A DNA stretch of 49,061 nucleotides from Euzebya sp. (GCF_964222135.1 NZ_CAXQBR010000020.1:1-49061); one strand, 5' to 3'. Counted from the first letter of the stretch, positions 15,759 to 31,295 are shown. Numbers and translations: made by a program. Notes: a model not told the origin generated them from the sequence alone.

Positions 15759-15784
15759 GCCATCCCGGTCATGCACCCCTGAAC

Positions 15785-15927
15785 CTCAGATCTGAGAACT
15801 GGGTCCTGTGACGGAGCTAAGGCTCAGATCTGGGTCCTGTGACGCCGGAGCTGAACCTGAGATCTGAGGGCTGGGTCCGGTGACGCAGCTGAGGCTCAGA
15901 TCTGGGTTCTGCGGTGCCGGAGCTACC
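15785..15927. repeat. Four degenerate tandem units built on CTCAGATCTGAG
   Basis: Units begin at 15785, 15823, 15856 and 15894, alternating about 38, 33, 38 and 34 bp, so the array looks like a duplicated 71-bp block. Each starts with CT(C/G)AGATCT and continues GGGTCCTGTGACG and GAGCT. Long units carry an extra GAG that completes a palindrome around AGATCT. The array fills the gap between the convergent purM and dehydrogenase genes. No ORF is supported here; a terminator role is possible. Confidence 0.85.
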
Positions 15928-25658: not shown

Positions 25659-26462
25659 TCAACGTGGTGAACCCCTGACGACCGCGGCCTCCTCGTAGGT
25701 CGTCGCGTGGAGGAACCCGAGGTCGCGGTACAGCGCCCGGGCGGGGGCGGTGCGGTGCCGGACGTTCAGCCCGATGACGTCGGCGACCTCCCGCAGGCGG
25801 TGGACCAGGCCGACCACGACGGCCCGGCCGTGCCCGCGCCGGCGGTGGGAGGGGTGGGTCGCCACGTTGCCGATCGCGGCCACCCCGGTGCCGGGCTCGA
25901 CCACGTGGACGCCGGCGACGGCGACCAGCACCCCGTCGGGGCTCCGGCCCTCGCGGCGGCCCAGGTAGAAGCCGGTGTCGACCAGGCCGGCGTGGAAGAA
26001 GTCCCCGGCATCGGGGTCGGTCGCGAACAGCGCGGTCATCGCCGGCACGTCCGCGCGGTCGAGCACCACCAGGTCGTCCGGTGGGTCCGGGAGGGGCGCG
26101 TCCGGGGGGAGGTGCAGCTTGTCGTACGCGTCGGCCCACCGGGCGGTGTAGCCCGCCCCCTCCAGCGCCGCCGTCAACCCGGTCGGGCCGGTGATCGTGA
26201 ACGCGTCCGGGAGGTCCCCCCGCGCGGGTGCGGCCAGGTCCGCGAGCAGCTCGAGGGTGGCGGGACGGGCCGACGGGTCCGCGGTCACGCTGTAGACGAC
26301 GTCACCTCCCGGGAGGTCGAGGAGGCCCACGACGGCGTCCCCCCGCCGCCACCACGTCGAGGTCGGCCACAGCTGCACCACGTCGGCGATGCCGTAGGGG
26401 TGGACGTGGGGGGCCCGCTGGTAGATCGCGAGGATCTCCGCGGGGTCGTCGACGGGCCGCAT
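25659..26462 (-). CDS. GNAT family N-acetyltransferase
   Basis: 267 residues. The C-terminal half is a GNAT fold: VAAIGNVATHPSHRRRGHGRAVV contains the acetyl-CoA loop (R-R-x-G-x-G/A), and LNVRHRTAPARALYRDLGF is the usual final motif. The N-terminal half (WPTSTWWRRGDAVVGLL and onward) resembles a divergent GNAT domain, suggesting a two-domain arrangement. Substrate unknown. It is divergent from the GAF gene across 87 bp that contain a hairpin repeat. Confidence 0.88.
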   Translation of the reverse strand: MRPVDDPAEILAIYQRAPHVHPYGIADVVQLWPTSTWWRRGDAVVGLLDLPGGDVVYSVTADPSARPATLELLADLAAPARGDLPDAFTITGPTGLTAALEGAGYTARWADAYDKLHLPPDAPLPDPPDDLVVLDRADVPAMTALFATDPDAGDFFHAGLVDTGFYLGRREGRSPDGVLVAVAGVHVVEPGTGVAAIGNVATHPSHRRRGHGRAVVVGLVHRLREVADVIGLNVRHRTAPARALYRDLGFLHATTYEEAAVVRGSPR

Positions 26463-26482
26463 CAGCGGCGCAGGGTACCGGC

Positions 26483-26534
26483 GAGCTCGGGCGCGATCGG
26501 GGCCTCCTTCGCCTGACGGCGAAGTTGGGCGCGA
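26483..26534 (+). repeat. Hairpin repeat, copy A, upstream of the GAF/subtilisin genes
   Basis: About 52 bp nearly identical to the reverse complement of 29207-29258. It contains a 7-bp stem (CTTCGCC/GGCGAAG) with a TGAC loop. In the other copy the stem is CCTCGCC/GGCGAGG, so the differing base pair is compensated. The repeat ends immediately before the -10 box of the GAF gene. Confidence 0.85.
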
Positions 26535-26540
26535 TAGTGT
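26535..26540 (+). promoter_or_regulatory. -10 box (TAGTGT) of the GAF gene
   Basis: TAGTGT ends 9 bases before the ATG at 26550 and directly abuts the hairpin repeat, which would then occupy the -35 region. Confidence 0.5.
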
Positions 26541-26549
26541 CCGCGCGGC

Positions 26550-27107
26550 ATGGCCCACCAGACCCCCGACCCCGTCCTCACGGCCGTGACCGCCGCGGCG
26601 ACCCGCGCCACCGGGGCCGCGGTCGGGCTGCTGCTGCGGGCAGAGGGACGGGTCCTGCGCGTCGTCGCCACCGCCGGTGCGGTGCCACCCGACGTGCTCG
26701 GGGAACCGATCTCGATCGGCGACGGCGTGGCGGGCTACGTCGTCGCCGCGGGCCAGCCGCTGGTGCTGTCCGCCGGCTCCGCGGACCCCCGGCTCGGGGA
26801 GGGCACGGCGAGCCTGCTCGGCACCAACCCCTCCTCCGTCCTCGCGGTGCCGGTCCAGGGCGACGAGCACGTCCTCGGCGTCATCGAGCTGCTCGACGCC
26901 ATCGACGGGACCTTCGGGGTCGACGACACCGAGCAGGCGACCCTCCACGCCGGCGTGGCGGCCGCGGCGCTGGCCGACGAGCGCCTGGCCGGCATGCGCG
27001 ACGTCCCCGACCCGGCCGAGCTGGCGGCTGAGCTGCGGCGACTGGCCGCGGCCGACCCGTCCCGCTACGCGACCGTCGCGACGATCCTGCAGTCGCTGGT
27101 GCGGTGA
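26550..27107 (+). CDS. GAF domain protein
   Basis: 185 residues, one GAF domain (about 15-150). VGLLLRAEGRVLRVVATAGAVP, ISIGDGVAGYVVAAGQPLVLS, SVLAVPVQGDEHVLGVIELLDAIDG and the closing helix follow the GAF pattern used for small-ligand or redox sensing. No kinase, cyclase or DNA-binding part is attached; the remaining C-terminus is short and helical. The ATG follows TAGTGT by 9 bases, with the hairpin repeat just upstream. Its TGA overlaps the start of the subtilisin gene, so the two proteins are probably made together and may interact. Confidence 0.87.
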   Translation: MAHQTPDPVLTAVTAAATRATGAAVGLLLRAEGRVLRVVATAGAVPPDVLGEPISIGDGVAGYVVAAGQPLVLSAGSADPRLGEGTASLLGTNPSSVLAVPVQGDEHVLGVIELLDAIDGTFGVDDTEQATLHAGVAAAALADERLAGMRDVPDPAELAAELRRLAAADPSRYATVATILQSLVR

Positions 27108-28060
27108 TGTCGCGGGCGGACATCCCCGCGTGGGCGAAGGAGTCGGCGGTCCTCGAGCTCGCCGCGGTCACCTCGCTCGGGGACCTGACGCCGGAGTGGG
27201 CCTGGGGAGGCTCGACCGGCGAGGGCGTCAGGGTGGCCGTCGTGGACTCCGGGGTCGACGCGGACCACCCGGACCTCGAGGGGTGCGTCGACGCCGGCGG
27301 CGGCATGGCCTTCCGCCTGGACCCGGACGGGGAGGTCATCGCCACGCCGGGACCGCACCGGGACGCCTTCGGGCACGGGACGGCCTGCGCGGGGATCATC
27401 CACAGCCTGGCGCCCGACGCGACGATCACATCGGTCAAGGTGCTGGGCGAGGGACTCAGCGGCAAGGCGGCGGTGTTCCTCCGCGGGCTCGCCTGGTGCG
27501 TCGAGCAGGGCTTCGACGTGATCAACCTGTCGCTCGGGACGACCAAGCAGGACTGGGCCCTGGCCTTCTACGAGGTCTGTGACTCCGCGTACTTCGCCGG
27601 GTCGTTCGTGGTGACGGCCGCGAACAACGTCCAGCGCCCCTCGTGGCCGTCGCTGATCGGGTCCGTCACGAGCGTCGCGTGCAACCTGAGCGCGGACCCC
27701 GAGCGGTTCCACTACAACCCCGAGCCGCCGACGGAGTTCCTGGCCCACGGCGTCGACGTCGAGGTGGCGTGGCGGGGCGGGTCCCGCATCGTCGGCACGG
27801 GCAACTCCTACGCCGCGCCGCACATCGCCGGGATCGCCGCGCGGATCAAGGCGAAGCACCCGGACCTGCGGCCGTTCCAGCTCAAGACCGTCCTGTGGGC
27901 GACCGCGGCGAACGTCCTGGAGGCGCCGACGCGCGCAGGTGCACGGCGCCCACGGCTCATCGCGTCGGCCAAGGCCTCCGGGGCGTTCGGGACCCAGGAC
28001 CTCCGCCGTGCCGGCGTGGCCCCCTCCTCCCCCTCCGCGCCCTCCCGATCCAAGATCTGA
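27107..28060 (+). CDS. Intracellular S8 (subtilisin-like) serine protease
   Basis: 317 residues with no signal peptide and no inhibitor_I9-type propeptide; only about 40 residues precede the catalytic domain. The triad is Asp47 (VAVVDSGVDADHPDL), His90 (FGHGTACAGI) and Ser234 (TGNSYAAPHIAG, with GNS in place of the usual GTS). The oxyanion Asn lies in VVTAANN. The ATG at 27107 shares its first base with the GAF stop (TGATG); a GTG at 27104 is in frame too. The C-terminal tail is Ser/Pro-rich. Cytosolic location is inferred from the missing signal. It is convergent with the hydroquinone reductase gene. Confidence 0.9.
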   Translation: MSRADIPAWAKESAVLELAAVTSLGDLTPEWAWGGSTGEGVRVAVVDSGVDADHPDLEGCVDAGGGMAFRLDPDGEVIATPGPHRDAFGHGTACAGIIHSLAPDATITSVKVLGEGLSGKAAVFLRGLAWCVEQGFDVINLSLGTTKQDWALAFYEVCDSAYFAGSFVVTAANNVQRPSWPSLIGSVTSVACNLSADPERFHYNPEPPTEFLAHGVDVEVAWRGGSRIVGTGNSYAAPHIAGIAARIKAKHPDLRPFQLKTVLWATAANVLEAPTRAGARRPRLIASAKASGAFGTQDLRRAGVAPSSPSAPSRSKI

Positions 28061-28095
28061 GCCCGAGGTCCGTAGGCGGCCCCGCCGCGCAGATC

Positions 28096-29145
28096 TCAGG
28101 CGTGTGACAGGCCGAGGAGGGGCAGGGCCGGGTTGTCCGCCGCGGGCACCCGCTCGTCGGCGCGGACGGGGCCGGGCGGGGTCCCGTCACCGAACGGGCT
28201 GCCGCCGAGCGCCTCACGGTGGTGCGGCTCGGCCCACACCGTCAGGTCGGGACCGGCGGGCACGACCCCGGTGGGGTTGATGTCGAGATGGGTCGCGTAG
28301 TAGTGCTGCTTGATCTGGGTGAAGTGCTGGGTGTCGCCGAACCCGGGGGTCTGGAAGAGATCGCGGGCGTAGGCCCACAGGACCGGCATCTCGGTCAGCT
28401 TGACCCGGTTGCACTTGAAGTGGCCGTGGTACACCGCGTCGAAGCGGGCGAGGGTCGTCCACAGCCGGACGTCGGCCTCGGTGATCGTGTCCCCGACGAG
28501 GTAGCGCTGGGTCTCGAGGCGCCGGCTGAGCTCGTCGAGCCGGTCGAACAGCGCGGCGTAGGCCCGTTCGTAGGACGCCTGGGAGCCCGCGAACCCGCAC
28601 TTGTAGACCCCGTTGTTGACGTCCTCGTAGAAGCTGTCGGCGACCTCGAGGATCTCCTCCCGACGTCCGTCGGGGAACAGGTCCGGGGCGCCGTCGCGGT
28701 AGTGGGCGGTCCACTCCGTCGACAGGTCGAGCGTCATCGTCGGGTAGTCGTTCGTGACGACCTGCCCCGTCGGCACGTCGACGATCGCGGGGACGGTGAT
28801 GCCCTTCGGGTAGTCGGGGAAGCGGGCCAGGTAGGCGTCCTTCAATCGAGGGATGCCGAGGACGGGATCGACCTCGCCGGGATCGAGGTCGAAGGTCCAG
28901 GAGTCCGCGTCGTGCACCGGTCCGGCGATGCCCATCGACAGGACGTCCTCGAGCCCGAGCAGCCGCCGGACGATCAGCGCCCGGTTCGCCCACGGGCAGG
29001 CGCGGGCGACGACCAGCCGGTAGCGGTCCGCCTCGACCGGCCACTCACCCTCCCGCTGCGGGTCGGCGACGATCCGGTCGGTGATGTAGTCGGTGTCGCG
29101 CTCGTAGGAGTCGGTGACGTAGCGGTCGTGGGTCTCGGTGGCCAT
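28096..29145 (-). CDS. Glutathionyl-hydroquinone reductase family protein (Xi-class GST)
   Basis: 349 residues of the ECM4/YqjG family. The thioredoxin-like part carries the catalytic Cys50 in VARACPWANRALIVRRLLGL. Other hallmarks are WTFDLDPGEVDPVLGI, TVPAIVDVPTGQVVTNDYP, the GST C-terminal domain with YKCGFAGSQASYERAY, and FHxVY-like FDAVYHGHFKCN. Family members reduce glutathionylated hydroquinones; in actinobacteria mycothiol is a likely substitute. TAGACC lies 6 bases before the ATG. A hairpin repeat shared with the GAF gene lies about 60-115 bases upstream. Confidence 0.93.
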   Translation of the reverse strand: MATETHDRYVTDSYERDTDYITDRIVADPQREGEWPVEADRYRLVVARACPWANRALIVRRLLGLEDVLSMGIAGPVHDADSWTFDLDPGEVDPVLGIPRLKDAYLARFPDYPKGITVPAIVDVPTGQVVTNDYPTMTLDLSTEWTAHYRDGAPDLFPDGRREEILEVADSFYEDVNNGVYKCGFAGSQASYERAYAALFDRLDELSRRLETQRYLVGDTITEADVRLWTTLARFDAVYHGHFKCNRVKLTEMPVLWAYARDLFQTPGFGDTQHFTQIKQHYYATHLDINPTGVVPAGPDLTVWAEPHHREALGGSPFGDGTPPGPVRADERVPAADNPALPLLGLSHA

Positions 29146-29206
29146 GAGGACGGTCTACCCCGCCGGCGCCCGTGCCGACCGCGTCGCCTCCTACACCTCA
29201 GGATCG

Positions 29207-29258
29207 CGCCGAACCTCGCCGTCCGGCGAGGCAGGCCCCGATCGCGCCCGACCTCGGC
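29207..29258 (-). repeat. Hairpin repeat, copy B, upstream of the hydroquinone reductase gene
   Basis: On the - strand this matches copy A at 26483-26534 over about 52 bp with about seven differences. The stem CCTCGCC/GGCGAGG with GGAC loop keeps pairing despite substitutions. Like copy A it points toward the downstream gene. Confidence 0.85.
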
Positions 29259-29273
29259 GCCCACCGCTCACCT

Positions 29274-31295
29274 TCAGTCGCGCTCGAACAGCGCATCGAG
29301 CTGGTCGCGCCCCTCCACGTCCGCCAGCGCCACGACCTCGTCGCCGGAGTACAGGATGGTGTCGCCGCGCGGGACGATCAACCGGCCCTCGCGTCGGACG
29401 CTGGTGATCGTCGTGCCCTCGGGCAGCTGCAGGTCCCGCAGGGCCATCCCCGCCGCCGGCGAGCCGATCGCGACGGTCAGCTCGACGAAGTGCACGCCGC
29501 TGAGCTCGCGCATCGCGATGCGCTCCTTGCGGTGCTGCCTGCCCAGACCCTGGTTCACCGCCTGCCGGTAGGCCTCGATGATGTCGGCCCGCCGCAGCAT
29601 GCCGACGAGGGAGGGGCTGGTCTGCGGGTCGACCACGGGCAGCCGTCCGACGTCCGCGGCCGCCATCCGGTGGAGGGCGCGGAACACCGGCGTGGTCGGC
29701 GACACGGTGAGGGGCTTGCGGCTGCACACGTCGACGGCGGTCCGGGGGTCCTCCCCCTCGACCGGCGGGTCGGGGAGGTCGCTGATCGTCACCACCCCGA
29801 CGAGGCCGCCGCGGTCGTCGACGACGGCGAAGCCGTGGTGGCCGGTCTCGGCGAAGCGGTGGCGGAGCGCGTCGAGGCCCATGTCGACACCGACGCTCGG
29901 CGGGTCGCTGGTCATCACCTCGCCGACGGTGACCGACTGCATGACGTCGATCTCCTCGGGCTCGTCGACGACGATGCCCTGCCGCTTGAGCGGGGCGGTG
30001 TAGATGCCGTCGGGGTGCATCCGGTCGGCGACGAACGTCGCCAGGCCGGCGGCGAACATCAGCGGCAGCACCAGCCCGTAGTCGCCGGTCAGCTCGAACA
30101 CGATCAGGATGGCCGTCAGCGGCGCCCGGGCGGCGGCGGCGAACACGGCCGCCATGCCGACCAGCGCGTAGGCCCCCGGTTCGAGCGAGGCCGAGGGCAC
30201 GAGCAGATCGGCGGCGTGGCCGACCGCCCCGCCGAGCGCCGCGCCGCAGAAGAGGGTCGGCAGCAGCGAGCCGACCGCGTTCCCGGACGTGACCGACAGC
30301 ATGGTCGCGCCGAACTTCGCGACCATCAGGGTGAGCAGGATGCGGACCGGCTCCCACCCTCCTCCGGCGGTGGCCCCGTCGATCATCGTGTCGATCGGCT
30401 CGGTGTCGCCGAAGATCGGCGGGAGCTGGTGCCCGCTGCCCAGGACCTCCGGCACGGCGAGGGCGATCAGGCCGACGCCGAGGCCACCGAGCGCGACCCG
30501 CAGCGGACGCCAGCCGGGGAGGCGGTCGAACAGGTCGTGGCCGATCCGCTCGCCGTGCAGGAACGCCATCCCCACCAGCGCGGCGAGGATCCCGATCAGG
30601 GCGTAGCCGAGCAGCTCGCGCGGGTCGGTGAGGCCGTACTCGACGCGGGACTCGAAGACGATCTCGGGACCGACCAGCTCCCGGGCGGTGACCGACCCGG
30701 CGACGGCGGCGAGGACCCCGACCTGCCGCGACCGGGCGGACAGCCGCCCGAGGATCAGCTCGATCGCGAACAGCATCCCGCCGATCGGCGCGTTGAACGA
30801 CGCACCGATCCCCGCGGCCGCACCGGCGGCGACGAGCGTGCGCATCCGGTCCTCGTCAACGCCGAACGCCGCGCCCACGAGCGACCCGACCGCCCCGCCG
30901 CCGAGGACGATCGGGGCCTCACGGCCACCGGACCCGCCGGTGCCGAGCGCCACCCCCGAGGCGACGAGCATCCCGGCCGGCACACGCTTGCGGAACCGGC
31001 TCCCGCGCAGGGCGATCGTCCGCATCACCTCGGTGATCCCGCCGCCGGCCGTCTCCGGCACCCAGTACGCCACGAGCAGTCCGACGACCAGCGCGCCGAG
31101 CGCGGGGACCAGGACGGTCCGTAGCGTCGAGGCCTCCGCGCCGAAGGCGAGGTCCTGGGCGAGCCCGATCACCTGGATCAACGCGAAGGCGAGGAGGCCC
31201 GTCAGGATCCCGATGACCCCACCGAGCGCGAGCAGCCCGGGCTCGCGCCGTGCGAACGCGATCATCCGACCGCGGACCTTCGTGGGCGCGTTCAC
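29274..31295 (-). CDS. ClC-type chloride channel/transporter with CBS pair and RCK_C domain
   Basis: 673 residues. The membrane part (about 15-430) has ClC signatures: AGGGITEV (83-90), GTGGSGGREAP (118-128, with the gating Glu126), FNAPIGGMLFAIE and GNAVGSLLPTLFCGA. It is followed by two CBS repeats (VGEVMTSDPPSVGVDMGLDA; VVDPQTSPSLVGML) and a TrkA-C/RCK_C-like domain near 595-670 (MRELSGVHFVELTVAIGSPA, DTILYSGDEVVAL). CBS domains bind adenine nucleotides, and RCK_C domains often bind ions or c-di-AMP. The GTG start overlaps the stop of a 31-codon ORF in GTGA; that ORF in turn overlaps purU. Confidence 0.92.
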   Translation of the reverse strand: MNAPTKVRGRMIAFARREPGLLALGGVIGILTGLLAFALIQVIGLAQDLAFGAEASTLRTVLVPALGALVVGLLVAYWVPETAGGGITEVMRTIALRGSRFRKRVPAGMLVASGVALGTGGSGGREAPIVLGGGAVGSLVGAAFGVDEDRMRTLVAAGAAAGIGASFNAPIGGMLFAIELILGRLSARSRQVGVLAAVAGSVTARELVGPEIVFESRVEYGLTDPRELLGYALIGILAALVGMAFLHGERIGHDLFDRLPGWRPLRVALGGLGVGLIALAVPEVLGSGHQLPPIFGDTEPIDTMIDGATAGGGWEPVRILLTLMVAKFGATMLSVTSGNAVGSLLPTLFCGAALGGAVGHAADLLVPSASLEPGAYALVGMAAVFAAAARAPLTAILIVFELTGDYGLVLPLMFAAGLATFVADRMHPDGIYTAPLKRQGIVVDEPEEIDVMQSVTVGEVMTSDPPSVGVDMGLDALRHRFAETGHHGFAVVDDRGGLVGVVTISDLPDPPVEGEDPRTAVDVCSRKPLTVSPTTPVFRALHRMAAADVGRLPVVDPQTSPSLVGMLRRADIIEAYRQAVNQGLGRQHRKERIAMRELSGVHFVELTVAIGSPAAGMALRDLQLPEGTTITSVRREGRLIVPRGDTILYSGDEVVALADVEGRDQLDALFERD

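Follow-up and report, generated by a model that had tools for sequence, protein, structure and literature searches.

The hairpins analyzed here belong to a genus-specific, REP-like repeat of Euzebya, and its cognate AbiEi-Vsr nuclease probably plays for the repeats the part that RAYT transposases play for REPs. The repeats form a dispersed family with a conserved hairpin, their sequence turns over from species to species, and genes and repeats are paired in a species-specific and paralogue-specific manner. The occurrence of an AbiEi-Vsr gene flanked by its own repeat type is a new finding and suggests a new kind of enzyme that may spread or maintain repeats.

The stretch under study (the window) comprises 49,061 nucleotides of a Euzebya sp. 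genome (NZ_CAXQBR010000020.1:1-49061). Gene calls rest on a codon model for which the window's own genome served as training data, and domain names come from Pfam. The features surrounding the two hairpins are as follows:

25659..26462, minus strand: GNAT acetyltransferase gene, divergent from the GAF gene (gene call and Pfam)
26478..26542, plus strand: family-1 repeat copy 1 (covariance model 78.2 bits, E 1e-12)
26550..27107, plus strand: GAF-domain gene (gene call and Pfam)
27107..28060, plus strand: subtilase-family gene (gene call and Pfam)
28096..29145, minus strand: GST-family gene of the glutathionyl-hydroquinone-reductase type (gene call and Pfam)
29196..29260, minus strand: family-1 repeat copy 2 (covariance model 84.4 bits, E 7e-14)
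29274..31265, minus strand: gene for a ClC channel with CBS and TrkA-C domains, its 3' end abutting copy 2 (gene call and Pfam)

A repeat search of the window recovered the inverted hairpin pair of the original prediction as two 57-nt arms, 26479-26535 and 29203-29259, that are 88% complementary. The stem of copy 1, CTTCGCC/GGCGAAG, occupies 26507-26513/26518-26524 on the plus strand around the loop TGAC (26514-26517), and two CGATC motifs start at 26494 and 26532, 38 nt apart. Copy 2, read on the minus strand, carries the stem CCTCGCC/GGCGAGG; the proposed compensated change, U-A to C-G with pairing kept, thus holds. In a genome-wide BLAST search copy 1 matched copy 2 with an E value of 9e-14, which excludes chance likeness of the two copies, and also matched dozens of further places.

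Both copies do lie ahead of genes as had been proposed, and two points can be added on their placement. Copy 1 sits in the 87-bp gap between the divergent GNAT and GAF genes and therefore points at one of two gene starts, and copy 2, located 14 nt past the stop of the ClC gene and about 50 nt ahead of the start of the reductase-type gene, is therefore as much a 3'-end element as a promoter element. Copy 1 leaves the family consensus exactly at 26536-26541, where TAGTGT resembles a -10 hexamer and precedes the start codon of the GAF gene by 8 nt; judged from these letters, the inserted copy may have been co-opted into a leaderless GAF promoter.

Copy 1 matches 56 places in the window's own assembly by BLAST, and a covariance model built from 30 aligned copies resolved about 60 distinct copies in 46 clusters and in both orientations, which supports the mobile structured element that had been offered as one of two readings. 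The family is REP-like in the functional sense, comprising dozens of short palindromic, mostly extragenic, dispersed copies, with 57 of the 60 outside called genes and three overlapping coding frames. The clusters were distributed over 15 convergent, 24 codirectional and 7 divergent gaps, against about 9 convergent and about 15 divergent expected from the intergenic base shares in 0.85 Mb (convergent 19%, codirectional 49.5%, divergent 31.6%). Convergent gaps are accordingly enriched and divergent gaps depleted, and the placement of family 1 shows a 3'-end bias, not a promoter bias.

The other reading, a regulator shared by the two promoters, was not supported by the genome-wide scan with the covariance model. 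Nearly every Pfam family among the 31 scanned genes with an element upstream occurs just once, and neither redox nor stress functions stand out. All three congeners have orthologues of the GAF and GST-family genes (70-77% identity), none of them with an element upstream. A shared promoter or regulator of redox genes was rejected on the absence of functional clustering and of conservation at orthologues. The many copies irrespective of promoters agree with a plain repetitive extragenic element, yet that description is incomplete, as every type of repeat is matched by a nuclease gene of its own that lies between inverted copies.

The design of the repeat was compared in 96 distinct copies from four species, all of which hold two CGATC-centred motifs exactly 38 nt apart with the hairpin between them. 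Seven stem positions were paired in 76% of cells, compared with 59% (sd 1.3) after shuffling of the 3' letters and 27-48% after sliding. The stems vary by species (CTTCGCC/GGCGAAG, CGTCGTC/GACGATG and AACCCAC/GTGGGTA-type) with pairing kept, more weakly in the genome termed G002, where 37-80% of cells pair per position. Since the 96 cores were picked for the 38-nt register and the shuffles do not remove the relatedness of copies, the hairpin conservation is supportive and not proof.

The genus sample consisted of four genomes: that of the window (G000), G001, G002 and G003. Across the 12 kb compared, the second replicon of G003 is identical to plasmid NZ_CP031166.1 of Euzebya pacifica. The 15-mer GCGCGATCGGGGCCT occurs 49 times in G000, 38 times in G003, 35 times in G001 and 0 times in G002. 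It was met 0 or 1 times in each of 26 other genomes of the order, and the reversed control gave 0 throughout. By this sequence distribution the family-1 repeat is recent and specific to the genus.

A single locus brings the repeats of the four genomes together. Between trpD and a small lrp-type gene, recognized by inspection of translations, all four Euzebya genomes hold an AbiEi-Vsr gene flanked by inverted pairs of the species' own repeat, laid out as 2-3 copies in one orientation, a gene of about 295 codons and 2-3 copies in the opposite orientation. The cognate gene of the window's repeat lies at this locus on contig C13 of G000. In G002, which is without the window's repeat, the orthologous gene (52% identity) occupies the same place and is flanked by inverted pairs of CACGATCGGGGCCTAACC...GCACGATCGTGG, a variant with 35 copies in G002 and 2 in each other species when one mismatch is allowed. 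Repeat type and gene thus co-vary across the four genomes, the type that flanks the gene being the one that is dispersed.

Comparison of the genes adjoining sampled clusters (47 in G000, 21 in G001, 14 in G003 and 24 in G002) left the trpD/lrp locus as the sole repeat site that G000 has in common with another species. Several more sites are common to G001 and G003, which are close relatives. An adjacency between L088 of G000 and L115 of G001 was rejected as a shared site because the elements lie on different sides of the genes.

The gene is intact in G000 and G001, and in G003 it is broken by an IS21-type istA/istB insertion. The Euzebya pacifica locus L124 (G003:C1 2670604-2674208) is in effect a natural knock-out of the AbiEi-Vsr gene with 38 repeats remaining, and the continued presence of repeats therefore does not need the gene. 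The gene stands in opposite orientations at L059 (G000:C13 17445-18716) and L106 (G001:C4 207397-208719), as if recombination between the repeats had inverted it.

An AlphaFold2 model of the cognate protein, built on 16 homologues, reached a mean pLDDT of 92. In this model the AbiEi antitoxin 6y8q is matched by residues 1-179 (Z 13.3, rmsd 4.7, 171 aligned), and residues 183-289 match the homing endonuclease I-Bth0305I (3r3p; Z 12.4, rmsd 2.7, 96 aligned), NGO0050 (3hrl; Z 12.2, rmsd 1.7, 91 aligned) and Vsr (1cw0; Z 10.9, rmsd 2.0, 99 aligned). Residues S185, D221, D234, H238 and D247 are invariant in the 16-homologue alignment. Pfam and PADLOC agree on DUF559 and AbiEi (PADLOC AbiEi 3e-12), DUF559 being still annotated as a domain of unknown function. 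Going by the structure model, the cognate protein is an AbiEi-like DNA-binding module fused to a predicted Vsr-type PD-(D/E)XK nuclease. A search of genome contigs by DNA pattern and by three-protein alignment gave no match, nor did a plasmid search with the Euzebya protein; a plasmid search with a homologue gave one Tsukamurella gene. In the open-access papers searched, nothing pairs DUF559 with REP, inverted repeats or AbiEi.

The association of gene and repeat extends beyond the shared locus. Of the 33 homologous genes in the class whose flanks were long enough, 10 have strong flanking inverted repeats (z>6), compared with 5 of 285 controls, all drawn from unbiased stretches of G000 (Fisher p 8e-8). 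When inverted or direct flanking repeats at z>6 are counted, the proportion is 16 of 33 against 5 of 285 (Fisher p 5e-14); around about half of the homologues clear flanking repeats are lacking. The three controls with the highest scores (z 16, 15 and 12) are all AbiEi-type proteins, one of them also among the 33 targets, which is a hypothesis-free rediscovery of the association. Two further G000 AbiEi-type genes found blind, L263:1665-2669 and L247:15579-16556, have flanking inverted repeats of their own (GGATGGATTCGACATC and CACGGATCGACTCCG). In Tsukamurella, which belongs to another class, a DUF559 gene lies between TGCGGTGGATTCTCACCGCTCAGCGGGCAATATCCACCGCAC and the inverse of that repeat, and three records of the same Tsukamurella species contain the repeat at additional, unannotated places. 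The repeat on contig C5 of G001 had no close copies in the sampled G001 DNA.

A second AbiEi-Vsr paralogue in the window's genome, on contig C73, has AGATCT palindromes on either side at intervals of 38-34-38 nt. Among AGATCT pairs 12-80 nt apart in 0.85 Mb, a spacing of 38 occurred eight times, 34 twice and 72 six times, and any other spacing only twice; family 2 is therefore dispersed too. Its 8 elements in 0.85 Mb, 5 of them outside the window, extrapolate to roughly 30-50 per genome. Two family-2 features lie in the window:

15784..15911, no strand assigned: family-2 array between convergent genes, four AGATCT at 15788/15826/15860/15898 (spacing 38-34-38), of the same type as the C73 flanks
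28049..28102, no strand assigned: family-2 copy with AGATCT motifs 38 nt apart at 28053 and 28091, reaching over the end of the subtilase gene and the convergent gap ahead of 28096

Repeats at other homologues have periods of 39, 62, 81 or 82 nt, and the 38/34 spacing thus does not hold throughout.

In REP/RAYT systems, short palindromic repeats occur in dozens per genome, extragenic and with a 3'-end bias; a single-copy gene lies between inverted copies, several gene-repeat pairs may share a genome, and syntenic orthologues stay in place while the repeat sequence changes (PMC2817692, PMC3116915). The Euzebya repeats are likewise short, palindromic, dispersed and 3'-biased, with a gene flanked by inverted copies, several gene-repeat pairs, and a syntenic gene accompanied by a changing repeat. 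Unlike REPs, they are longer and carry two palindromic motifs 38 nt apart, and the protein is an AbiEi module with a Vsr-type nuclease. A RAYT-driven REP system proper was rejected: Y1_Tnp (PF01797), the HUH gene, is absent from all four genus genomes (5 of 14 control genomes match), and the GTAG head is absent from the consensus of the 30 aligned copies. The architecture of RAYT and REP is mirrored without enzyme homology, and the Euzebya system therefore works like RAYT/REP and is not a member of it.

Likenesses to other systems are partial. CGTC-tagged and untagged REP-like families are also REP-like and without RAYT, but neither end of the G000 consensus of the Euzebya repeat carries a CGTC tag, the inner stem there is 7 bp (8-9 bp in the CGTC family), and the Euzebya repeat has a dedicated associated gene. 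The AbiEi type IV antitoxins (S. agalactiae AbiEi, M. tuberculosis Rv2827c) share the fold of Euzebya residues 1-179, whereas the Euzebya protein is fused to a Vsr-type nuclease and its repeats lie on both sides of the gene and genome-wide. The toxin partner of such antitoxins is AbiEii (DUF1814); the genes seen beside the Euzebya locus on inspection of translations are trpD and the small lrp-type gene. Vsr, I-Bth0305I and DUF559 proteins share the fold of residues 183-289 with its conserved acidic and His site; the N-terminal DNA-binding module differs, and no intron, intein or mismatch-repair context was seen. Rickettsia RPE resemble the in-frame Euzebya copies inside essential or conserved genes (murG, hemW), but the Euzebya sequence is unrelated and mostly intergenic. 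The in-frame copy in murG (G000:C62) falls in residues 173-232, a stretch represented by only about ten residues in the homologue from Pseudomonas aeruginosa, and adds about 20 residues to the murG linker; the hemW copy is found in G002.

Three other explanations could account for part of these observations. The nuclease could be a defence or DNA-repair protein, the repeats being spread by something else and building up or being kept near it because it tolerates or requires them, for instance as self-DNA marks or nicking sites. Its Vsr-type fold, the Vsr-like Caulobacter DUF559 protein reported earlier (PMC12907096) and the match of 2 of the 16 homologues to the NCBIfam model 'anti-phage protein ProA' all accord with such a role, which nevertheless does not predict a cognate inverted-pair repeat type of its own around each paralogue and in each species; with Y1_Tnp lacking in the genus and no other enzyme-repeat association seen, we regard this account as unlikely. 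Slightly less credit is due to the proposal that the repeats are operators of an AbiEi-type protein, which represses its own gene and has the dispersed copies as its regulon; this amounts to the shared-regulator reading with a named regulator. AbiEi antitoxins are autorepressors whose own promoters contain the paired 23-bp inverted repeats that they bind, with gaps of 3 or 13 bp (PMC7319586), a geometry near the 38/34-nt spacing, and the structure model matches the AbiEi fold; repeats at the 5' side of the gene alone would therefore read more simply. The repeats instead stand on either side of the gene, the majority of copies lie elsewhere than upstream of genes, with an excess at convergent sites, and a few lie in-frame within genes, all of which, together with the lack of conserved sites at orthologous genes, weakens the operator reading. 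The genes with an element upstream have no function in common, and the nuclease residues are conserved.

That the repeats are ordinary structured 3'-end elements, acting as terminators in both directions or as stabilisers of mRNA and unconnected with the nuclease, is very improbable. The 3'-end bias, the stable hairpin and the perfect long palindromes among the copies (C1:60059, C44:6277) would suit such a function, but no T-run follows the hairpin, copies also occur in divergent gaps and inside genes, and Rfam has no match in the window at the gathering threshold. The cognate gene arrangement, the fixed 38/34 spacing and the species-specific types would moreover be left unexplained.

Under the preferred explanation, a REP-like repeat with a cognate AbiEi-Vsr nuclease, the nuclease would move or maintain the repeats. 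The AbiEi part would recognize the palindromic motifs, much as AbiEi antitoxins read paired inverted repeats (PMC7319586), the Vsr-type domain would nick or cut the repeat, perhaps in its extruded hairpin form, and the repeat would be copied to new sites through repair or recombination, or be maintained. Any influence on the GAF and reductase genes would be a by-product. Neither a transposition event nor a target-site signature was observed. A wider generalization, which we advance tentatively as a fair possibility short of a probable one, is that AbiEi-Vsr (DUF559) proteins are sequence-specific nucleases and a non-HUH counterpart of RAYTs, widespread in Actinomycetota, each mobilising or maintaining its own palindromic repeat family, that of the window included.

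Many bacterial REP-like families are without a known enzyme, as stated for CGTC REPs, which have no known dedicated transposase (PMC3733652). The link between gene and repeat provides a candidate enzyme for such orphan families and a candidate role for DUF559 genes. If true, the REP/RAYT way of life would have arisen two or more times in evolution, with enzymes that are not related to each other.

Two features of the copies themselves were also noted. At C1:60053-60117 and C44:6271-6335, variant near-perfect long palindromes (GATCGGGGCCTACTTCGCC TCAT GGCGAAGTAGGCCCCGATC) stand beside a standard copy. In the first 3.5 Mb of the G003 chromosome, about 17 of 20 family copies are on the minus strand, a possible replication-strand bias.
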